Positions 2-15,086 of a stretch of 64,000 nucleotides of DNA are shown here, in pieces. The notes under the pieces were generated by a model that saw nothing but the letters and a program-made list of their open reading frames with translations, had not been told where the DNA came from and did not search any database. The translations under genes and the position numbers were made by a program. Position 1 is the first letter of the stretch. Each line of letters starts with the position of its first letter. Source of the stretch: an uncultured SAR86 cluster bacterium (lineage in GTDB: Bacteria > Pseudomonadota > Gammaproteobacteria > Magnimaribacterales > AG-339-G14); assembly GCA_902635045.1 (NCBI GenBank), contig CACPMT010000001.1:218993-282992 (forward strand). The letters are read 5' to 3'.

Positions 2-1633
2 CAGGCTAACGCAGAAAAAACCGCAATGAGTCTGCGAGATACAGGCTATACCTTAAATGCTTCAGTTTCAGATTTAGTAGATAATTCCATAGAAGCTGGA
101 GCTAAAAATATTTCTGTATTTTTAGACTTAGATAATGAGGGAGAAGTTATTTTTTATTTAGCCGATGATGGTTGTGGCATGGATAGAGATGGCTTGATAA
201 ATGCTATGACATATGGTGCAGCTGATAGAAAAAAAACCAGCAATCCTTCATTAGGAAAATTTGGTATGGGTTTGAAGACTGCGTCCACAGCTCATTGCAA
301 AAAAGTAGCTGTTGTTAGTAGAAATAAAAAAGGCGCTGAACCCTTAAGAATTACGATGGATTTAGATAATTACGCTAACTGGGAATGTGAATTGGATACG
401 CCAGAGCCTCATGAAATAGCATGGCTCGACCAGGTTGCAGAAAATAAATCGGGAACTATTGTAATTTGGAAGTCAGTAGATAGAGTACAAACAACTGGTA
501 ATAATAAAGAGTATTCTGACAAAACCAGCAAGTATGCATTCAGAAATATTGAAAAGAAAAGAGCAGAATTATCTGAACACCTAAACCTAGTTTTTTATAG
601 ATTTTTACAAGATTTCCGAGGTACTAAAAAGAGAGTCAATATTTCTTTGAATGGTGAAGATTTATTAGGGTGGGATCCATTTTGTGAAGACTTTGTTAAA
701 GCCAATGAAAAAGCTACTTTAAAGATAGCCTTTCAAGATTTAAGTACGTCAAAAATTCTCAAAGAAAACATAGATATTAGAGGCTATATTTTACCTAGGG
801 AGAAAGATACTAAAGACGATGAGAAACGAGCAAGACTTAAGATTGGAAATGAAAAACAGGGAATCTATGTTTTTAGAGAAGATCGCTTGCTTTCTTTACC
901 CAATCTTTTAGGCCTTGTAATGGAGCCACATGGGAGTCTTTTTAGAGCAGAAGTAAATATTGTTCCAGCTTTGGATGGTTTTTTTGAGGTAGATATCAAA
1001 AAATCTAGAATCGTCACTCCACTTGAGATCAAAAACGATCTCTTGGGAGGCGGCGGTAGAGCTGGAGTACTAGCTGCAACAAGAAGGGCTGCAGATAAAG
1101 CTTACAGAGGGCCAAAACAAAAAAAAATTGCAGGGCAGGCAGTAGATATCCATACCTCATCAAATACTTCAATAAAGGACGTTGTTTCAACGTTGGACAC
1201 TTCCACAATTTTAGATACTTCTGGGAAAAATAAAGCCGATATTAAAAACAAAGAGGGCGAGCAATCGGGTATTAAATTGGTCAGTTCTGAGGTGGAAAAA
1301 TCTGGTGAAGTTTATGTGCAACCAAGTGAGCAAGTCTCCAATAACTGTCTTTATGAGCCCGCGGCTTTGTCGGAATCAGATGTTAATCACAATGGGGTTA
1401 TTATTAATACCAAACATCCTTTTTATGAAAAGATTTACGTCAAATATAAAAAAGAGAAATTAATTGTAGAAGGTCTGGATGTTCTTCTTTATGCCCTTGC
1501 TCAAGCAGAGTTGAGTTATACAACTCCAGATATTCAAAGAAAGCTTGAAGATTTTCGTCATCTTGCTTCTAGAAATTTAGAAAGCCTGATGGATACTTTT
1601 CCTGAGCTTACAGACTCGGAAATTGAAGCTTAA
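2..1633 (+). CDS. MORC/Hsp90-like GHKL ATPase, 5'-truncated by window edge
   Basis: GHKL motifs: DLVDNSIEAGA (N-box), DDGCGMD (DxGxG), GKFGMGLKTAS (GxGxG-type lid). The frame stays open upstream of ATG 26 (QANAEKTA-MSLRDTGY), so the true start is probably outside the window. Confidence 0.85.
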   Translation, partial: QANAEKTAMSLRDTGYTLNASVSDLVDNSIEAGAKNISVFLDLDNEGEVIFYLADDGCGMDRDGLINAMTYGAADRKKTSNPSLGKFGMGLKTASTAHCKKVAVVSRNKKGAEPLRITMDLDNYANWECELDTPEPHEIAWLDQVAENKSGTIVIWKSVDRVQTTGNNKEYSDKTSKYAFRNIEKKRAELSEHLNLVFYRFLQDFRGTKKRVNISLNGEDLLGWDPFCEDFVKANEKATLKIAFQDLSTSKILKENIDIRGYILPREKDTKDDEKRARLKIGNEKQGIYVFREDRLLSLPNLLGLVMEPHGSLFRAEVNIVPALDGFFEVDIKKSRIVTPLEIKNDLLGGGGRAGVLAATRRAADKAYRGPKQKKIAGQAVDIHTSSNTSIKDVVSTLDTSTILDTSGKNKADIKNKEGEQSGIKLVSSEVEKSGEVYVQPSEQVSNNCLYEPAALSESDVNHNGVIINTKHPFYEKIYVKYKKEKLIVEGLDVLLYALAQAELSYTTPDIQRKLEDFRHLASRNLESLMDTFPELTDSEIEA

Positions 1634-1638
1634 TTCTA

Positions 1639-2913
1639 ATGGAAATTGATCAATCAAAAATAAAACAAAGCCTTACTAGTTTTGGATTTAACCCTGCTAA
1701 TTTAAGCGTTATCAATAATCTTGAGGCTAAACCTAAATTGACTGCTCTCTTTGATTTTATTAGAAATAATCCTTTTAAAATTTCTTCTGAATTGGAACAC
1801 CTTAGGACAGTGACTACATTTTCTTTAGGAGATAAGTCAGTTCTGCTTTTAAGGCATCTTGAAACCTCTTCAAAAAATTGGAAAAAAAATTTTGAAGCCA
1901 TCGTAAAAGAGGTTTTCTCAGAGAGGGGTAAATTTGAGTTAATGATCAATGAAAAACAATCAATATATAAAAAAGAAGTTGTGTGGCCAAAAGAAAACTG
2001 GCGAAATTTAAGTTTCTCGATTGTATCTGATTACTTAGCTCTCAAGGAAGAAGGACTCAATCAAGAAGAAGTATCTCGTCAGATGCTTAGAGCAATTACC
2101 AGAATACTTTCGTTGATTATCTCTTTGGTCGATGAAAGAACTTATATTGATAAATTTTATAAAGAACTAACCGCAAACGACTTGGGTAAAACTGGCAGTC
2201 ATCAGGCAGGCATTGCCATCCCAAAAAGTAAGCATCTTTTTTTCGGGCTCATGGATGAAACTAAATTAAACCCAGACATGAAGCTAGATTTTTTTGATAA
2301 AAAAAATAATAAAAGACACAAACTTCGTTTCATTTACTACAACAATAAATTACATGGCGGCACTAGAAACGAATATCGTCTTTTATGGTTAAAAGAATTT
2401 TTAGAGGAAAACAATCCCTCTATCGGCGACGTCATTACTTTTGAGAGAAAATTCAAAGAAGGAGAAGATAAGCTTTTTATCTCTATAGCTAAGAAGGAAA
2501 CAATAAATTTAGCACTAGAAAAAGAAATGGAAATCTCCAATGAATTTTGGCTAGACCCTTCAGAAGCAAGCGGACAGGAATCTTTCAAAGAAGGCGAAAA
2601 GCTTCGCATTGAAGTCAACAGGTATGAACGCTCTCAGAAAAATAGGCTAATGGCTTTGGCTTTTCATGGCTACGACTGTTCCGTATGCGATTTAAATTTT
2701 GTCGATAAATACGGAGAACTAGGTAACGATTTTATTCATATTCATCACACAGTTCCTGTAAGTAAATTAAAGCCAAGTTATCAGTTAGACATAAAAAAAG
2801 ATTTGATCCCTGTATGCCCAAACTGTCATGCCATGTTGCACAAAGGAGATCATATGATTAAAAGACCTTTCACAGTAACAGAACTAAAAAAAAGGATGGC
2901 AAGCAATGCTTAA
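1639..2913 (+). CDS. Restriction endonuclease-like protein: EcoRII-N/B3-like DNA-binding domain plus C-terminal HNH nuclease
   Basis: LTANDLGKTGSHQAGIAIP...LNP...IYYNNKLHGGTRNEYR resembles the EcoRII N-terminal B3 domain (LSANDTGATGGHQVGLYIP...IYYNSAHFGKTRNEKR, recalled from memory). The C-terminus has CSVCDLNF...HIHHTVPVS...DLIPVCPNCHAMLH (HNH). Confidence 0.8.
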   Translation: MEIDQSKIKQSLTSFGFNPANLSVINNLEAKPKLTALFDFIRNNPFKISSELEHLRTVTTFSLGDKSVLLLRHLETSSKNWKKNFEAIVKEVFSERGKFELMINEKQSIYKKEVVWPKENWRNLSFSIVSDYLALKEEGLNQEEVSRQMLRAITRILSLIISLVDERTYIDKFYKELTANDLGKTGSHQAGIAIPKSKHLFFGLMDETKLNPDMKLDFFDKKNNKRHKLRFIYYNNKLHGGTRNEYRLLWLKEFLEENNPSIGDVITFERKFKEGEDKLFISIAKKETINLALEKEMEISNEFWLDPSEASGQESFKEGEKLRIEVNRYERSQKNRLMALAFHGYDCSVCDLNFVDKYGELGNDFIHIHHTVPVSKLKPSYQLDIKKDLIPVCPNCHAMLHKGDHMIKRPFTVTELKKRMASNA

Positions 2914-4849
2914 TTGGGAAATTCAAAACAACAAAATAAGTTTTTCTGACGAAAAACAAAATCCGATGTCTTTAAACTTTAATGAGATTTATAACCTTGT
3001 ATATCCCAAAGATACCTCAGAAATAAAAACTGATATTAAGGACTTTGAAAAACTTAGCAAAATCGTTCAACCTGGCTGTAAATTTGAGCCGCTTAAAGTA
3101 GGTTTTAAACTCAATCCGAGTGACTATCCAATGTTTTCGTTAGATTATTTTGATGAAACTGATGATCAAAAAAAGATTCTAGGTTCTTTAGCGGAATACT
3201 TTGAAAGAGATCATGCAGTAACAGATAAATTAAAAGTTTTTTCTCTGCCCCAAAAAAACTTTGTACGTGATTTGTTTGAATCCGAAGGAATTGATCCCAA
3301 TCAACCTTTTGACCTCAGCGAGTATCTGAAACTTAAATCTTCAGAATTGGCAGCACAGATAGATTTTAGTGATTTTTCTGCCGATAACGAAGAAATGCTT
3401 AATGCAATCGATCAATCCAGTGAAAATATGACCTTCTTCACAAATGATCCCAATATTAAATTAAGAGACTATCAAACGACAGGTTTTAGATGGATGAAAA
3501 ACTTTGTCAATGCTGGAGTCGGTGTTGTGCTTGCCGATGAGATGGGGTTGGGTAAAACACTTCAAGTTATTCGATTGGTCTGCGATCGATTGGCAAAAGG
3601 CGAGCAACCCAGTCTGATTGTAGGGCCTTTATCTTTGATTGAAAATTGGAAAAGAGAATTTATGAAATTTACCGATGGCATTGATTTATACATTCACCAT
3701 GGTCCATACCGTGAATTGGAAACAGAAAAATTCAGAAATAAAAATTCACATGTAGTACTCACATCTTATGAGACTTTGCGCAGCGATGTGCATTTTTTAA
3801 AACAATTTGATTGGGATTTGGTCATTTTGGATGAAGCTCATAGCATAAAAAATCCCACTTCCCAAAGATCTCTGTCTGCGAGAGATATCAACAAAAAAGC
3901 AGGCATTGCGATTACTGGTACGCCTTTTGAACATCGCCTAACAGACTTGTGGACGATTTATGATTTCGTTCAACCCGGCCATCTTGGGTCCTTGGAAGAA
4001 TTTAATGAAAATTATGACAACTCTATTTTAGGTGGAGAGGCACTAGCGGATAAAACCGCTTCGCTCATGTTGAGAAGAAAAACCAAAGATGTCGCTAAGG
4101 ATTTACCTGAATTAGTCATAAACCCAATTCCAATTGAGATGTCTCAAACTGCAAAGATGATTTATGAGAAGACTAGGACGGGCATTCACGGAGCCATTGG
4201 CGATGACCGTTTACCAAATTTTGCTGATCTAGTTCCCTTGAGACAGATATGTTCGCATCCCGAACTAGATGCCTTCAAAAAAGGAGAGCCCTTAAATCCT
4301 ATTGCAAACAGTCATAAATACGAAAGATTGGTTGAAATCTTAACGCAATCAGAAAATCAAAAATCCATAATTTTCACTCAATGGATCCCCATGATAAATC
4401 TGATGTCCCAGGACTTAGGTAAAAGATTTAAAAACCACTTCATAGGCAGCATTACTGGAGATGTTGATCAAAAAGATCGGCAAAAAATTATAGACAAATT
4501 TTCTGATTACGATGGGGGCGGTATTTTAATTTTGAATTATCAAGTTGGTGCAACGGGCTTAAATATTCAAGCAGCAGATAATGTCATTTTATATTCACCA
4601 GACTGGGGGCCGGCAACAGAAGACCAAGCTATAAAAAGAGCCCATCGAATTGGCCGTAAGGATCCTGTTAAAGTTTATAAGCTTTTTTATGCTCATACTT
4701 TGGAAGAAGTGATGTATGAAATGATTGAGAAGAAGAGAGCAATTGGTGATGCAGCAGTTTTAGAAAACTCTGGAGAAGACTCTAGCTCAGCTTTAATTGA
4801 ATATTTAGGTGGTAAACAACTCTTAAGTGTTACGCCAATGGAGGATTAG
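2906..4849 (+). CDS. SNF2-family (SF2) helicase/translocase
   Basis: LADEMGLGKTLQVI (I), VILDEAHSIKN (II), ITGTPFEHRLTDLW (III), GATGLNIQAADNVI and DQAIKRAHRIGRKDPVKVYKL (V/VI). Overlaps the previous CDS by 8 nt. Confidence 0.93.
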   Translation: MLNWEIQNNKISFSDEKQNPMSLNFNEIYNLVYPKDTSEIKTDIKDFEKLSKIVQPGCKFEPLKVGFKLNPSDYPMFSLDYFDETDDQKKILGSLAEYFERDHAVTDKLKVFSLPQKNFVRDLFESEGIDPNQPFDLSEYLKLKSSELAAQIDFSDFSADNEEMLNAIDQSSENMTFFTNDPNIKLRDYQTTGFRWMKNFVNAGVGVVLADEMGLGKTLQVIRLVCDRLAKGEQPSLIVGPLSLIENWKREFMKFTDGIDLYIHHGPYRELETEKFRNKNSHVVLTSYETLRSDVHFLKQFDWDLVILDEAHSIKNPTSQRSLSARDINKKAGIAITGTPFEHRLTDLWTIYDFVQPGHLGSLEEFNENYDNSILGGEALADKTASLMLRRKTKDVAKDLPELVINPIPIEMSQTAKMIYEKTRTGIHGAIGDDRLPNFADLVPLRQICSHPELDAFKKGEPLNPIANSHKYERLVEILTQSENQKSIIFTQWIPMINLMSQDLGKRFKNHFIGSITGDVDQKDRQKIIDKFSDYDGGGILILNYQVGATGLNIQAADNVILYSPDWGPATEDQAIKRAHRIGRKDPVKVYKLFYAHTLEEVMYEMIEKKRAIGDAAVLENSGEDSSSALIEYLGGKQLLSVTPMED

Positions 4850-4853
4850 TATT

Positions 4854-5900
4854 ATGAATATGTTAGTTATTGCAAGTGCTTTTGCTTTTCTTTTAGGTTC
4901 AATTCTTGGTTTTGGCATAGCTTTTTATTTTTTTTATATCAGATCTAATCCAATTTCAGAAGAAATAGAATCTGAGGAAGAATCTTTTACTGAAGAGATA
5001 ACTCTTAAAGATGTTTACGATAAAGTTGTCAAAAGTGAAGAGAATACTGATGAGTTAGGAAGTCAAATTAATTCCATTTATAAAAGTTTTACTTCGCCTA
5101 TCGAACAAGGGCAACATGGAGAGGATCTGCTTAAACTCATTTTTGAGGGCAGTGGTTTAATTGAAGGCGAACAATATATTTACAACCGAGGTACTTCCGA
5201 GGGCAGGCCAGATTACATTGTAAAACTTCCTAACAAGGGAGCAGTTATAGTTGATGCAAAATTCAACTCTAGAAATTTCACAAGAGCATATGAAACAGAT
5301 GATTTAGATGAGCGAGAGAGTCTTTTTGAGCAGTCCGCAAACGATGTAGAAAAAACTGCCAAAGAATTATCCAGCAGAACTTACACAGATATTGAAGGCA
5401 TTGATACTGCAGAAATGATCTTTATGTTTTTACCTAATGATAATATCTATGCAAATGCTGTAAATAAGAAAGAAAATCTATTGGAACAGTGCTACAAAGG
5501 CTTTCCGGTTGGAAAGCAATCAAATAAAACGCCAATAATTCTAGTTACTCCCAGTTCGTTAACCTCAAGCCTAAAAGTAGTATCAATGATGTGGAAAGAA
5601 AGGAATCTTTATAGAAATATCTCAGATGTAAAAAAATCCTTAAAAAAATTGCATCAAGGTTTTAAAACTTTTAACCAAAACTTTGTAAAAGGCGGAAAAG
5701 ATTTACTCAGCGCAAGTGATAGCTTCAGAAAGGTATATAGTAAATTTAGCTCACTCAGTGACGAGGTACAAGCAGTCGAGGAAACTATTGATGTCGTTCC
5801 TATAGATGATTTAGATGACAGTAAATTTATGACACATAAAACACAAAAACCCTTATCCGCAGCAGATATTGAAAAGCTCGAGGATAAAGTTGAAACATAA
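4854..5900 (+). CDS. RmuC-family PD-(D/E)XK nuclease-like protein with N-terminal transmembrane helix
   Basis: N-terminal TM (MNMLVIASAFAFLLGSILGFGIAFYFFYI); GQHGEDLLKLIFEGSGL; GRPDYIVKLPNKGAVIVDAKF; MIFMFLPNDN; LVTPSSLTSSLKVV. ORF-track start 4827 is moved to ATG 4854 after the SNF2 stop. Confidence 0.85.
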   Translation: MNMLVIASAFAFLLGSILGFGIAFYFFYIRSNPISEEIESEEESFTEEITLKDVYDKVVKSEENTDELGSQINSIYKSFTSPIEQGQHGEDLLKLIFEGSGLIEGEQYIYNRGTSEGRPDYIVKLPNKGAVIVDAKFNSRNFTRAYETDDLDERESLFEQSANDVEKTAKELSSRTYTDIEGIDTAEMIFMFLPNDNIYANAVNKKENLLEQCYKGFPVGKQSNKTPIILVTPSSLTSSLKVVSMMWKERNLYRNISDVKKSLKKLHQGFKTFNQNFVKGGKDLLSASDSFRKVYSKFSSLSDEVQAVEETIDVVPIDDLDDSKFMTHKTQKPLSAADIEKLEDKVET

Positions 5901-6816
5901 GTTTACCTTTATCGATCTTTTTGCGGGTATTGGAGGGATGCGAATTCCTTTAGAAGAACTTGGCGGAAAATGTGTTTTTTCTTCTGAGATCGATAAGTAT
6001 TGTATTCAGTCTTATAAAGCAAATTTTGAAGAAGAACCTCATGGCGACATCACTCAAATAGATGAGAAGAATATTCCTAAACATACTATTTTAGTTGCTG
6101 GATTTCCTTGTCAGGCTTTTTCTCATGCAGGATTAAAAAAAGGATTTCAAGACACTCGCGGTACTCTGTTCTTTGATATAGCAAGAATCCTCAAGCATAA
6201 AAAACCAGAGGCTTTTTTACTAGAAAACGTTAAAGGCTTAAGAGGGCATGATAAAGGGAAGACTTTAAACATAATCATTAAAACTCTCAATGAATTAGGT
6301 TATCAAAGCATAAATTTAGAAGTTCTTAATTCAAAAAACTTTGGATTACCGCAAAACAGAGAAAGAATTTTTATTGTAGGTTTTAAAAAATATTCAATTT
6401 TTAATTTTCCCCAGCCACTAAATAAGAAGACTAGACTCGGAACAATTCTTCACAAAAATGCAGCAAGGAAACTTACAATTTCTGACAAATTGTGGGATAG
6501 CCATCAAAAACGAAAGCAAAAAAATAAAGTCTTAGGTAGAGGGTTTGGCTATTCCAGTTTTAATAGAGATGCAGAATACACTAGTACAATTTCAGCTCGT
6601 TACTATAAAGACGGGTCAGAAATTCTAATTGAACAAAAAAACAAAAATCCAAGAATGTTATCTCCAAGAGAGGCAGCTAGACTTCAAGGGTTTCCTGAAA
6701 GTTTTAAAATTGTAGTAAGTAATCTACAAGCCTATAAGCAGTTTGGAAATTCTGTTTCTGTTCCTGTTATCAGAGAAATCGCTAAGGAGATTCTCGTTAC
6801 TCTTAATATTAAGTGA
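5869..6816 (+). CDS. DNA (cytosine-5) methyltransferase, Dcm-like
   Basis: FIDLFAGIGGM (I), GFPCQAFS (IV), ENVKGL (VI), QNRERIFIVGF (VIII), GNSVSVPV (X). TTG start, overlapping the RmuC-like gene. TRD region contains SARYYKDGSEILI. Confidence 0.95.
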   Translation: MKSSRIKLKHKFTFIDLFAGIGGMRIPLEELGGKCVFSSEIDKYCIQSYKANFEEEPHGDITQIDEKNIPKHTILVAGFPCQAFSHAGLKKGFQDTRGTLFFDIARILKHKKPEAFLLENVKGLRGHDKGKTLNIIIKTLNELGYQSINLEVLNSKNFGLPQNRERIFIVGFKKYSIFNFPQPLNKKTRLGTILHKNAARKLTISDKLWDSHQKRKQKNKVLGRGFGYSSFNRDAEYTSTISARYYKDGSEILIEQKNKNPRMLSPREAARLQGFPESFKIVVSNLQAYKQFGNSVSVPVIREIAKEILVTLNIK

Positions 6817-6817
6817 A

Positions 6818-7387
6818 ATGTCTTACACCAGAAAATGTAATGAATGCGGGCAACTAATTAGCCTGCGAGAAATGCCAGGGGGACAATGGGTGGCTTTTGA
6901 TATAGGAACTGATAAACCGCATAAACATTTTAAAGAAAATAAAATAAATTCAAAGAATTCTTTTCCCCAAGAAAAAATAAAAAAAATTAACGAAGTAAGA
7001 TCAGATATTAAAAATGCAATATCAAGAAGCCAAATAATAAAGATAGCTTATTTAGATAAGAAAGGAACTGTCACAGAAAGAGAAATTTTTCCAATTAACG
7101 TTATACAAGATGGAGATATAAGAAAATTGTCGGCATATTGTACTTTGAGAAATTCTTCAAGAATATTTATAGTCGAAAATATTTTAAATTCAGAACTTGC
7201 AGGAAGTATGCCGAATTGGTTTCGAGAAAGGTCAGAAATTTTATCTTCAGATGAAAAGATTGAAAGCTCTAAAAATGAATATAATTCTGATATAGGCGAT
7301 CTTGACGACTTCTTTTCGACAATCAAAAATATGTTTAAGCTCTTTGGAATTATTATTTTATTAATTTTTATTGCAAGCTTTTTTTAA
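6818..7387 (+). CDS. Small zinc-ribbon + WYL-like domain + C-terminal transmembrane protein
   Basis: CNEC...KPHKH putative zinc site; IKIAYLDKKGTVTEREIFPINVI...YCTLRNSSRIFIVENIL WYL-like; C-terminal LFGIIILLIFIASFF TM. Start ATG 6818 preferred over 6743, which lies inside the MTase gene. Confidence 0.65.
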   Translation: MSYTRKCNECGQLISLREMPGGQWVAFDIGTDKPHKHFKENKINSKNSFPQEKIKKINEVRSDIKNAISRSQIIKIAYLDKKGTVTEREIFPINVIQDGDIRKLSAYCTLRNSSRIFIVENILNSELAGSMPNWFRERSEILSSDEKIESSKNEYNSDIGDLDDFFSTIKNMFKLFGIIILLIFIASFF

Positions 7388-8382
7388 AAATATTTTTCTG
7401 TTAGATCACTTGCTAGTTTTTTAAATTTGTCCCTAAGTTTCTTTGGTTCCAATATTTCAACATCTGCACCAAAACTTTTGAGCCATTGCTCAAACTGTAA
7501 AGTATCCGTCATTCTGGCAGAAACTAATAATCTGCCATCAATCTTCTTTTCTATTTTTTGTGTTCCATTTAGAGGAGTTTCCATTAAATGAGCTGCTGCG
7601 GTGAAGTCAAATAAGGCTTTAAAAGTATAAAGTTTCTTTGAATATTCAAAACTTAAGTTATTGGTATGGGTAAATTCATCTAAATCAAAATCCTTAGGTT
7701 CACGTATTTTTTCATCAAGAATTTCTACACTTTCGAAGCGGTGAAGGGGCAAGTATCTTGGGTTCTCTTTGTCTTCATCCATCATGCAAATCAGGTAATT
7801 AATGCTACCTTTCATGACTAACCCTAAAGGATGAATATGTCTTAGGCTTGATTTAGTATCTCCACGTTTTCGATAAAGGGCTCTAATTTGTTGCCCTTCG
7901 AAGGTTGCTTTATATAAAGCTTGTTCAGCCGATTTATTAAGAATTGGGTTCTTAAAACGCAACATCTCAGGCAAGACTCTAACTCGGTTGCGCCAGCGGT
8001 TAATCAATCTAGGGCTCGTGTCTTTTAAGACATTGTTGGCTCGCTTAAAAAAATATCCAATTCTTTTGAAACTTGCCTTTGGCATGATGGGTTCTAAATA
8101 CTGTTCTGCCAAAGAAATAGTTAATGCCTCTATTGGATCCATTGCAGGAGCTTGAATCCCTAAGCCCTCTTCAGTCCAGGACCAGCCATAAGGTTTGTCT
8201 CGGTCATCACAGATCAAAGGCAAAACCCTTTCCAAAGAAACTAAATCTCTTTGTATGGTGCGTTCGTCTACGTCATATCCACGATCGCTCAATTGCTCTT
8301 TCAATTTCTTGGTATAAGTTTTTCTTGGTGCCCGAGGGATTAGCTCCAACATGGATATTTGTCTCAAGGTAGGATTACTCAT
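7384..8382 (-). CDS. HTH-WYL transcriptional regulator
   Basis: N-terminal DeoR-like wHTH (RQISMLELIPRAPRKTYTKKLKEQLSDRGYDVDERTIQRDL) and WYL-type domain (IRALYRKRGDTKSSLRHIHPLGLVMKGSINYLICMMD...LPLHRFESVEIL). Confidence 0.88.
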   Translation of the reverse strand: MSNPTLRQISMLELIPRAPRKTYTKKLKEQLSDRGYDVDERTIQRDLVSLERVLPLICDDRDKPYGWSWTEEGLGIQAPAMDPIEALTISLAEQYLEPIMPKASFKRIGYFFKRANNVLKDTSPRLINRWRNRVRVLPEMLRFKNPILNKSAEQALYKATFEGQQIRALYRKRGDTKSSLRHIHPLGLVMKGSINYLICMMDEDKENPRYLPLHRFESVEILDEKIREPKDFDLDEFTHTNNLSFEYSKKLYTFKALFDFTAAAHLMETPLNGTQKIEKKIDGRLLVSARMTDTLQFEQWLKSFGADVEILEPKKLRDKFKKLASDLTEKYF

Positions 8383-8417
8383 AGTGCTCTCTTAATTATT
8401 TAATCTTAACTTTCCAC

Positions 8418-8436
8418 AGCGACATAATCTGTCGCT
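8418..8436. promoter_or_regulatory. Perfect inverted repeat AGCGACA-TAATC-TGTCGCT, candidate WYL-regulator operator
   Basis: 7-bp perfect arms with a 5-nt spacer, about 36 bp upstream of the WYL gene start and in the divergent spacer with ORF 8474. Confidence 0.5.
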
Positions 8437-8473
8437 TCTTGTAACTATAGTACGCCGCTTTCTAAAAATAAAT

Positions 8474-8728
8474 ATGATCAGAAAATTAGATAAAAAAACA
8501 CTTCATGAGTCCATGATAGATACTTCAATTGCATTGCCAATTGCTTGGGTAACTTCCTATGGTACTTTGGCTTTGATGATGAATTTGGGCATGGCAAATG
8601 CCTTTTTAATTTCTGCAATACAGACTTTGGTTTTGACTATTGTCTCGGTAGTCAGAAAATATATTGTAAGATCGGTTTTTAAAAAAACCAAAAATTTTTC
8701 GACTAATCAGGTCTTAGTGCCAAGATAA
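8474..8728 (+). CDS. Small membrane protein, resembles phage-associated DUF7220-type proteins
   Basis: Two hydrophobic segments followed by SVVRKYIVRSVFKK. Resemblance to the S..R.Y..RR.F pattern of phage-encoded small proteins is from memory. Confidence 0.5.
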   Translation: MIRKLDKKTLHESMIDTSIALPIAWVTSYGTLALMMNLGMANAFLISAIQTLVLTIVSVVRKYIVRSVFKKTKNFSTNQVLVPR

Positions 8729-8729
8729 A

Positions 8730-8915
8730 ATGATTAAGAAAGAAGACAAAGATAAAGAAGAAGAAAAAAATAAGGACGGAGAGATCACTCAAGAGACTCT
8801 TGAAGCGCTTGCAAAAAAATATAATGTTAAAATCTTGCCTGATGATCACCCGATCTACCGAGAGCCGCCAACCATTATTATTGGTCCTAGTATTAGAAAT
8901 AAAAAAAAGAAGTAA
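8730..8915 (+). CDS. Hypothetical highly charged 61-aa protein
   Basis: Open frame 1 nt after the preceding CDS; charged N-terminus and lysine-rich C-terminus. Confidence 0.45.
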   Translation: MIKKEDKDKEEEKNKDGEITQETLEALAKKYNVKILPDDHPIYREPPTIIIGPSIRNKKKK

Positions 8916-8931
8916 AATATTTAAATCTCTT

Positions 8932-9405
8932 TTAAATTTTTTTTGAAACTAGTATAGGGTAGGAAGATGATACTAATATTAAACCACAGCAAATTAATAC
9001 CCAGCCAGGAATAGAAATGCCCATAAGACTCCACATAACTTCAGCACAATTGCCATCACCTATAAATAGCATGCTTAAAGCATCAGCAAAATAAGATTTA
9101 TCAATTAGATAGGCAAGATCTGGTCCGCAAGTTGGTACTTGATCCGCCGGTAAAGATTGTAGATATAAATGCCTAGTGGCTGAGGCTGCACCGCCAGCAC
9201 TAAAAAATGCAGTGAGTCCAAAATAAACTTTTGGATATTGATTATGGATCAGTCCAATGAGGGCTGCCAAGCCAGCCAGAGCGACAGCAATGCGTTGAAT
9301 AATACACATTGGACAGGGCTCTAAGCCCAAAGCATATTCCATATAATAAGCAGTACCAAGCAAGGCCAGACAAAAAACCAATATAAAAGTAAGGGCTATT
9401 CTCAT
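8932..9405 (-). CDS. dsbB: Disulfide bond formation protein B
   Basis: EYALGLEPCPMCIIQRIA and LPADQVPTCGPDL cysteine motifs; four TM segments. Confidence 0.92.
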   Translation of the reverse strand: MRIALTFILVFCLALLGTAYYMEYALGLEPCPMCIIQRIAVALAGLAALIGLIHNQYPKVYFGLTAFFSAGGAASATRHLYLQSLPADQVPTCGPDLAYLIDKSYFADALSMLFIGDGNCAEVMWSLMGISIPGWVLICCGLILVSSSYPILVSKKI

Positions 9406-12997: not shown

Positions 12998-13645
12998 ATG
13001 ATAAAAAAATTAATTTTTTCAGCTTTTATTTTACTTCTAGCGCCCTTATTCCATGCAGTATCAGCAGCTGATGCAAGTAAAATAGCCAAGGCTCCTCTTA
13101 GAGGAGACCCTATTGCTGGTGAAGGAAAAGTTATGGTTTGTGCTAGTTGTCACGGAGTCGATGGCAATAGTGTAGTTGGCCAGTGGCCAACTTTGGCAGG
13201 ACAACGAGAAAGCTATCTGTTTGATCAACTTGAACATATAAAGGACGGCGAAAGGGTGATTGCCTCGATGATGGGGTTATTGGATGCTTATGATTATGAT
13301 GATTTGAGAGATATGGCGGCTTATTATGCTGCGCAACAAGTAAAGGTTGGACAAGCGGAAAAAGAAAATTTAGCGCTTGGAGAAAAAATTTATAGGGCAG
13401 GAAATATAAATTCGGGTGTTCCTGCTTGTACGGGTTGTCACGGTGCCAAAGGAAAAGGCATAGAATCTGCTGGATATCCAATGTTAGGTGGTCAAAAGGC
13501 TGAATACGTAGTTACTTCTCTTATTGCATATCAAAATGGCAACAGAGGACATGACACTAAAGGAAAATCAATGCAAGGAATAGCTGCCAGACTTACTCTA
13601 GAAGAAATTCAGGCAGTGGCTAATTATGTCTCAGGTCTTTACTAA
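12998..13645 (+). CDS. Di-heme cytochrome c4
   Basis: Signal peptide; two CxxCH motifs (CASCHGVDG, CTGCHGAKG). Start 12998 favoured over 12953. Confidence 0.93.
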   Translation: MIKKLIFSAFILLLAPLFHAVSAADASKIAKAPLRGDPIAGEGKVMVCASCHGVDGNSVVGQWPTLAGQRESYLFDQLEHIKDGERVIASMMGLLDAYDYDDLRDMAAYYAAQQVKVGQAEKENLALGEKIYRAGNINSGVPACTGCHGAKGKGIESAGYPMLGGQKAEYVVTSLIAYQNGNRGHDTKGKSMQGIAARLTLEEIQAVANYVSGLY

Positions 13646-14258
13646 ATTTTTTGTTTTTTCTTTAATTTTTCTTCTTAGCGCTCAGTGCTCCGAAGCGGCA
13701 GACAAGTATAAACCTGGTAGACATTATGAGGTTTTATCGCAGCCAGTTTTAACTAGAGACAATTCTAAAGTCGAAGTCATTGAATTTTTTTGGTTTGGCT
13801 GTGGCCATTGCTTTACCTTGGAAGGCTCACTTACTGATTGGAAAAAAGAATTACCCACTTCAGTTGATTTCTACAGATACCCTGTCATCTGGAATAAAAT
13901 GGTGGAAACTCATGCAAAGTTATTTTTTATTGCTGAGGCTCTAAACAAACCAGAGATAATTGATGGCGTTTTCTCTGCCATTCATATTCAACAAAAAATG
14001 CTCGCCTCGGATAAGGAGATTATTCCTTTTATTAAGACCTACGGTGTATCAGAAGATGAATATATTGGCTTAATAAATTCCTTTGGTTTGAAAAATAATG
14101 TCAAAAAAGCTGATCTTTTTGGTCAAAAATACGGTATAAAAGGCGTCCCAACTTTCATTGTGAATGGTAAATACGCTGTTTCTGGAAATCGCGAGATTGG
14201 AACAAAGGATTTACTTGATGTGGTTGATTTTTTAATAGCGAAAGAAAGAAAACAATAA
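13626..14258 (+). CDS. dsbA: Thiol:disulfide interchange protein DsbA
   Basis: Signal peptide; VEFFWFGCGHCFTLE-type active site (FFWFGCGHC); GVPTFIVNGKY. Confidence 0.93.
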   Translation: MSQVFTKFFVFSLIFLLSAQCSEAADKYKPGRHYEVLSQPVLTRDNSKVEVIEFFWFGCGHCFTLEGSLTDWKKELPTSVDFYRYPVIWNKMVETHAKLFFIAEALNKPEIIDGVFSAIHIQQKMLASDKEIIPFIKTYGVSEDEYIGLINSFGLKNNVKKADLFGQKYGIKGVPTFIVNGKYAVSGNREIGTKDLLDVVDFLIAKERKQ

Positions 14259-15086
14259 ATGAGTAAATACAAGTCGAACCTGTTCATTCCGGGGCACACT
14301 CTTGACCGATTAGAGCGCGGCTTAAACAGCAATGCCGATGCCCTAATTATCGACTTAGAAGATGGTTGCCCAGCTGATAAAAAGATATTGGCACGAGAAG
14401 AACTCATTAATCTTCTTAAAGAAAATGCTTTTACCAAACCGGTTTTTATCAGAGTCAACGATGCGATGGATGCTATCGGCAGAGAAGATATTGATGCCAT
14501 TTCTCCATATCAAGATCAGATAGAAGCAATAATTCTTCCTAAAACTCAAAGTTTTGACTTTTTAGCAACTTTAGCTCCAATGATTGATTTTTCAAATAAG
14601 TTGGTTCCTTTAATCGAAACACCAAGAGCAATTGACACCGTAACGCAAATCGCTGCTTTCAAAGATGTCGTTGGTTTATTTTTTGGAGCTGCTGATTCTT
14701 CAGCTAGCTTGGGATGTAAGCTTGCTTGGGAGCCTTTGCTATATGCTAGACAAAAGGTAGTACTCGCAGCAGCAATGTATAACTTATTCACCATCGATGC
14801 GCCATTTTTTTATATTGATGATAAAGAAGGATTAAAAAAAGAAGCTGAAGCAGTTAAAAATCTAGGCTTTACAGGTAAAGCAGCCATCCATCCTGATCAA
14901 ATTGATTTTATTAATGAATCTTTTGCTCCTACTTCTGAAGAAATTGCTGAAGGTAAAAAAGTTTTAGAAGAGTATCAAAAATCAGGCGGAGGTGCAGTTA
15001 AGATTGACGGCCAAATGGTTGATGAGCCAATAGCTGAGGCTATGAGGCTCAAAATCTCTCTTGGAGAAGAAGAAAACGAAGACTAG
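14259..15086 (+). CDS. CitE-like CoA ester lyase (HpcH/HpaI aldolase family)
   Basis: LFIPGHTLDRLERGLNSNADALIIDLEDGCP; IETPRAI; GKAAIHPDQ. Confidence 0.88.
   Translation: MSKYKSNLFIPGHTLDRLERGLNSNADALIIDLEDGCPADKKILAREELINLLKENAFTKPVFIRVNDAMDAIGREDIDAISPYQDQIEAIILPKTQSFDFLATLAPMIDFSNKLVPLIETPRAIDTVTQIAAFKDVVGLFFGAADSSASLGCKLAWEPLLYARQKVVLAAAMYNLFTIDAPFFYIDDKEGLKKEAEAVKNLGFTGKAAIHPDQIDFINESFAPTSEEIAEGKKVLEEYQKSGGGAVKIDGQMVDEPIAEAMRLKISLGEEENED

Follow-up and report, generated by a model that had tools for sequence, protein, structure and literature searches.

We find that the last gene of a defence operon in an uncultured SAR86 cluster bacterium encodes a three-part protein, here called ZnR-WYL-TM, in which a zinc ribbon is followed by a WYL domain with a retained basic pocket and by a C-terminal transmembrane (TM) tail, and that relatives of this protein recur beside other defence systems. 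What might be its role? Our preferred reading, held tentatively and somewhat short of probable, is that ZnR-WYL-TM acts as a tail-anchored cytoplasmic nucleic-acid sensor or adaptor and serves helicase-nuclease defence systems as an exchangeable accessory. The TM helix would hold the ribbon and the small beta-barrel of the WYL domain on the cytoplasmic side of the inner membrane, the ribbon would dock on helicase/nuclease machinery or on nucleic acid, and the WYL pocket would read a nucleic-acid product (ssDNA or an oligonucleotide) that arises from infection or from cutting by the system itself. Ligand binding would then retain or switch on a nuclease complex at the membrane, the entry point of phage DNA. 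Sidedness, ligand, docking partner and direction of control are the elements of this scheme that we infer.

The operon and its last gene

The window (the whole stretch of 64,000 nucleotides that was analysed) lies within a 389,544-base contig of a 1.11-Mb genome that is 88.5% complete. Its features of interest are the following:

26..1633, plus strand: GHKL ATPase (MzaB-like/MORC-like), first gene (Pfam HATPase_c_3; NCBIfam MzaB below cut-off)
1639..2913, plus strand: EcoRII-N domain fused to an HNH nuclease (domain search)
2906..4849, plus strand: SWI2/SNF2 helicase (domain search; ZorD/DpdE-like helicase part)
4854..5900, plus strand: RmuC-family protein with an N-terminal TM helix (domain search; hydropathy)
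5869..6816, plus strand: C5 cytosine DNA methyltransferase, Dcm type (domain search)
6818..7387, plus strand: ZnR-WYL-TM protein, 189 aa, the operon's final gene (ORF, Pfam, alignment, hydropathy, model)
6818..6937, plus strand: zinc ribbon, residues 1-40, with C7, C10, H35, H37 and an invariant GQWVAFD (alignments; model pLDDT 80-94)
6968..7207, plus strand: WYL domain with leading helix, residues about 51-130, pocket R88, C108, R111, R115 (PF13280, Pif1 sequence match, PafBC/BrxR/CapW/DriD fold, residue map)
7328..7384, plus strand: C-terminal TM helix, residues 171-189, nothing after it (hydropathy; helix 162-188 in model)
7384..8382, minus strand: YafY-type HTH-WYL-WCX regulator, hotspot resident (domain search; congener comparison)

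An initial annotation, made from the letters of the window, had placed the gene at the close of a defence operon, with a reading frame that begins inside the methyltransferase gene and an ATG at 6818 that yields 189 aa. Frame and coordinates are right: six genes run head to tail from 26 to 7387, the mechanically supplied ORF opens at a TTG at 6743 within dcm, and the ATG lies one base after the dcm stop, which ends at 6816. This ATG is the supported start because M1-S2 is invariant in the alignment of full-length relatives. At its 3′ end the gene overlaps that of the facing HTH-WYL gene by 4 bp (7384-7387). The GHKL frame also has an ATG 22 bp before the window, with GGGAG ahead of it.

The operon type itself is already known. 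Its layout is close to the SWI2/SNF2-type GHKL restriction operon, the second operon type of Iyer et al. 2008 (PMC2292703), since it combines the components that define this type (GHKL, SWI2/SNF2, and HNH or EcoRII-like, often with Dcm), yet it differs in the fusion of EcoRII-N to HNH, the lack of Vsr, and the additional RmuC and ZnR-WYL-TM genes. The GHKL protein resembles MzaB of the MZA system (MzaB-C, DUF4420, AIPR), scoring 142.3 with the MzaB profile against a cut-off of 850; an assignment to MZA was rejected, as the operon is without Z1 helicase, DUF4420 and AIPR. A core of SNF2 helicase, small EcoRII-N protein, GHKL and HNH, with Dcm and Vsr, is present on plasmids of Rhizobium, Agrobacterium, Marinobacter, Fuscovulum, Pseudomonas and Sphingomonas as well as on two IMG/VR contigs. 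Among the genes seen in these core operons, for which the plasmid gene tables are incomplete, RmuC and ZnR-WYL-TM are absent. Such systems therefore do not require ZnR-WYL-TM, an optional component, and this also counts against our preferred reading. On viral contig L058 (3808-4725), a BrxR-like WYL gene adjoins the same GHKL/SNF2/HNH core, and close relatives of its product are found on 18 further viral contigs.

Zinc ribbon and membrane tail

The putative Zn site first noticed as CNEC...KPHKH is conserved among relatives in the alignments. Of its CxxC…HxH ligands, C7, C10 and H35 are invariant and the fourth is either His or Cys, the latter in the protein of genome G040 and in a Bradyrhizobium plasmid protein; to judge from the alignment, such a swap is of the kind expected of a metal site. 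The model places ribbon strands at residues 3-6, 13-18 and 24-28, with ligand pairs of the CxxC/HxH type on beta hairpins, as in a zinc ribbon with a putative metal site, and a Pfam search matched no family name to residues 1-40. Among relatives, identity amounts to 48–82% in the ribbon, 28–62% in the WYL domain and 25–37% in the stretch thereafter. The emphasis that the initial annotation laid on WYL therefore needs shifting: the domain is there, but the best-conserved part of the protein is the ribbon.

As had been proposed, the chain ends in a single hydrophobic helix. Of 20,000 shuffled versions of the protein, only 172 reached the hydrophobicity of residues 171-189, and hydropathy detects a C-terminal hydrophobic segment in every full-length relative and in a shorter ribbon protein (locus L002, see below). 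K170 and K174 flank the helix on its N side and none follows it, which fits an N-terminus-inside topology; the N-terminal part would hence lie in the cytoplasm, with the helix in the inner membrane. The linker between WYL and TM spans 40 to 100 residues, and neither linker nor TM is conserved in sequence. A well-conserved ribbon next to a variable linker and TM is as expected of a docking module plus tether. Neither Pfam nor the model reveals an HTH in ZnR-WYL-TM, in agreement with its earlier description as an HTH-less WYL protein, and the zinc ribbon takes that place.

Could the tail itself be the weapon? Once a ligand binds WYL, the TM helices might come together into a leaky assembly and so arrest growth of the infected cell. 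Effectors of other defence systems are known to combine a soluble sensor with a single TM helix, and the last-gene position would suit such a role. However, with TM sequence and linker length unconserved, a passive anchor is a better fit than a mechanically coupled pore, and these operons already contain nucleases as effectors. We hence regard a membrane-damaging effector as quite improbable; of the two roles originally offered, sensor or effector, it is the sensor-like character that we favour, and the effector role is graded lower.

The WYL domain and its pocket

All four members of the family exceed the curated PF13280 (WYL) cut-off of 21.8 bits (28.5 for the window protein; 27.1, 27.1 and 37.7 for the others), bearing out the suggestion of a WYL-like beta domain. 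Among solved chains, two Pif1 helicases with a C-terminal WYL domain are nearest in sequence (8bnv, 8bns; E 6.4e-5). Among PADLOC profiles, the WYL part matches RTasWYL-YodC of DRT loci best (1.2e-11), though only the last 92 of its 354 profile positions match and, unlike in DRT loci, no reverse transcriptase was seen in the window operon. A first AlphaFold model, built from a 2-sequence alignment, was not confident over the WYL domain and its Foldseek matches are meaningless. The second, whose alignment took in WYL domains from BrxR-like proteins encoded on viral contigs, reached pLDDT 89-95 over residues 51-130 and comprises one helix and five strands. Foldseek aligned it with CapW, PafBC, BrxR and DriD at 1.1-3 Å, including CapW and DriD structures bound to ssDNA, and PafBC and BrxR superpose at 1.1-1.7 Å. 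This predicted structure shows compatibility with an Sm/SH3-like small beta-barrel and no more than that, because WYL rows guided the model; evidence that does not depend on them comes from the profile score. The WYL fold on which the original proposal depended is thus found by profile, and the model is compatible with it.

Four pocket residues (R88, C108, R111 and R115) are invariant in all ZnR-WYL-TM members when aligned to Pif1 and PafC. In the alignment, the arginines equal Pif1 R464/R491/R495 and C108 equals Pif1 C488, so that both proteins have the same R-C-R-R pattern, Cys included; by spacing, the arginines also match PafB R181/R204/R208. For PafB, ssDNA binding is lost in the R181A mutant and in the triple mutant R181A/R204A/R208A, and an outer pair, R211/R214, is needed as well (PMC11804915). 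This outer pair (R201/R204 in PafC) is missing across the ZnR-WYL-TM family, with I118/N121 in its stead. Of the five arginines that form the PafB/Pif1 ssDNA site, the pocket hence retains three. Such a pocket could plausibly accept a ligand that carries phosphate, but its residues give no assurance that this would be ssDNA. For our preferred reading, the absence of the outer pair from the whole family is a counterpoint, as is the small number of full-length members, four.

The nearest solved relative suggests another role for the domain. In Pif1, WYL is an accessory ssDNA-binding module (PMC9964779), and ZnR-WYL-TM could likewise be a ribbon-centred membrane tether whose WYL domain adds nucleic-acid grip without any sensing. 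The higher identity of the ribbon is consistent with this, as is the L002 protein, with ribbon and TM but no WYL. Yet all full-length relatives in the order retain WYL with the inner basic pocket intact, and we consider a mere tether unlikely. The WYL domain of Pif1 is fused to the helicase; ZnR-WYL-TM is a separate predicted membrane protein adjoining helicase genes.

With the regulators CapW/BrxR, PafBC, DriD and YafY, ZnR-WYL-TM shares the WYL fold, a basic inner pocket and a location in defence islands (PMC9122601), but it has no HTH, WCX or dimerisation domain, lacks the outer arginine pair, and instead carries a membrane tail and a zinc ribbon. Characterised WYL proteins of defence islands act mostly on transcription; if the preferred sensor/adaptor reading is true, the same kind of ligand signal would act directly on a nuclease machine. 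The available portions of the literature searched describe no ZnR-WYL-TM protein, and the WYL fusions in the accessible part of Makarova et al. 2014 (nucleases, helicases, BRCT, TerB) include none with a membrane segment (PMC4012209).

Relatives, their neighbours and the dsbB-polA site

ZnR-WYL-TM is encoded in 4 of 203 genomes of the order, the window genome included. In G077, it is the last gene after GHKL-Z1-DUF4420, an MZA-like set. Its neighbour in G088 and G040 is the gene for an SF1 helicase-PLD-zinc-finger protein of 1,164-1,175 aa that resembles Mokosh MkoA/MkoC, the two genes being convergent in G040. The 94-aa ribbon-TM protein of L002 is encoded between a NERD-helicase and a DEDD exonuclease that carries its own C-terminal TM by hydropathy, and the Bradyrhizobium plasmid encodes, next to a UvrD helicase, a protein composed of ribbon, proline-rich and TM parts. 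The defence context initially proposed holds, therefore, for the window gene and for every full-length relative found. The G040 protein is 50% identical to that of G077, from a different system, versus 46% to that of G088, from the same one, and for the ribbon the figures are 82% and 55%; with four sequences in all, this no more than hints at exchange between systems. ZnR-WYL-TM looks like a movable accessory, found beside unrelated helicase/nuclease defence systems. In G088, an exact 2,059-bp duplication (L011 9561-11619 = 13007-15065) spans the C-terminal part of the helicase-PLD gene and the whole ZnR-WYL-TM gene, either a recent event or an assembly error.

Searches beyond the order returned little. 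Viral contigs queried with the full alignment, the ribbon and the WYL part contained no ZnR-WYL-TM relative, and the phage search gave one weak match, to WYL only. A ribbon search of the class and phylum matched only the window genome, and outside that genome a full-profile search of the class reached other ORFs through their WYL part only. Among named genome contigs, a single-protein search, whose reach is close relatives, had its only match in an uncultured Alphaproteobacteria genome, AG-359-I23. ZnR-WYL-TM is thus rare in the sequences searched and belongs among the WYL accessories of defence systems. Separately, on Rhizobium gallicum and Agrobacterium plasmids, a short unannotated ribbon-like ORF (L050 6887-7228, L051 6887-7234) directly precedes a CBASS-like nucleotidyltransferase and a SLATT-domain gene.

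The neighbours also bear on whether the protein restrains a nuclease. In the Shield system, the membrane-bound RmuC protein ShdA is a nuclease that works with modulators, and ShdB, ShdD and ShdE lower its activity (PMC10270631). The window operon likewise has a membrane-anchored RmuC-family protein, a likeness at the level of the family, but Shield has no named counterpart of ZnR-WYL-TM. By analogy, a membrane-held regulator might keep the RmuC/HNH nucleases inactive until a WYL ligand arrives. The operon's own TM-anchored RmuC two genes upstream, and the known logic of WYL repressors released by ssDNA (CapW/BrxR), would accord with such a brake. Against it, related core operons run without ZnR-WYL-TM, and the relatives in G077, G088 and G040 have no RmuC neighbour, which makes an RmuC-specific brake impossible and weakens RmuC as a dedicated partner. 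We see the brake as possible but doubtful. Under our sensor/adaptor reading, the TM-anchored RmuC here and the membrane-bound nuclease of Shield make the inner membrane a plausible place of work. In its broader form, which we advance a little more cautiously still, ZnR-WYL-TM may represent an undescribed, exchangeable membrane-anchoring sensor subunit (ribbon, optional WYL and tail anchor) that stations several unrelated helicase-nuclease systems at the inner membrane. If true, its recurrence beside three kinds of system would mean that helicase-nuclease machines can be stationed there, and the small family with its clear pocket residues makes the reading directly testable.

What of the second WYL gene, which faces the operon? 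The tail-to-tail layout with an HTH-type WYL gene was described correctly, but a pairing of that gene with this operon does not hold up. A YafY gene occupies the same dsbB-polA site in G019 (89% identity), G021 (81%) and G017, next to a Pif1-type and a UvrD helicase in G019 and to a DISARM-like set of Dcm, DrmB and DrmA in G021, and G020 has neither YafY nor cassette at this site. As YafY stands beside other cassettes in congeners, we rejected it as a dedicated partner of ZnR-WYL-TM. These varied cassettes and the empty site in G020 mark a defence hotspot with YafY as its resident; the tail-to-tail arrangement results from the orientation of the cassette, and YafY may regulate its neighbourhood. 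The hotspot lies at 7384-9405 of the window (compare L072, L073, L084 and L086), with YafY on the dsbB side in four of the genomes compared.

An RmuC gene usually linked to dsbB (L073 9394-10296) is absent from its expected position in the window genome, and one search of this 88.5% complete genome gave no match for it elsewhere. The cassette RmuC (4854-5900) is 19% identical to the usual one and, within that completeness, has possibly replaced it. Between yafY and dsbB, the window has a small DUF7220 gene (8474-8728), of which a 66%-identical ORF lies beside dsbB in G019.
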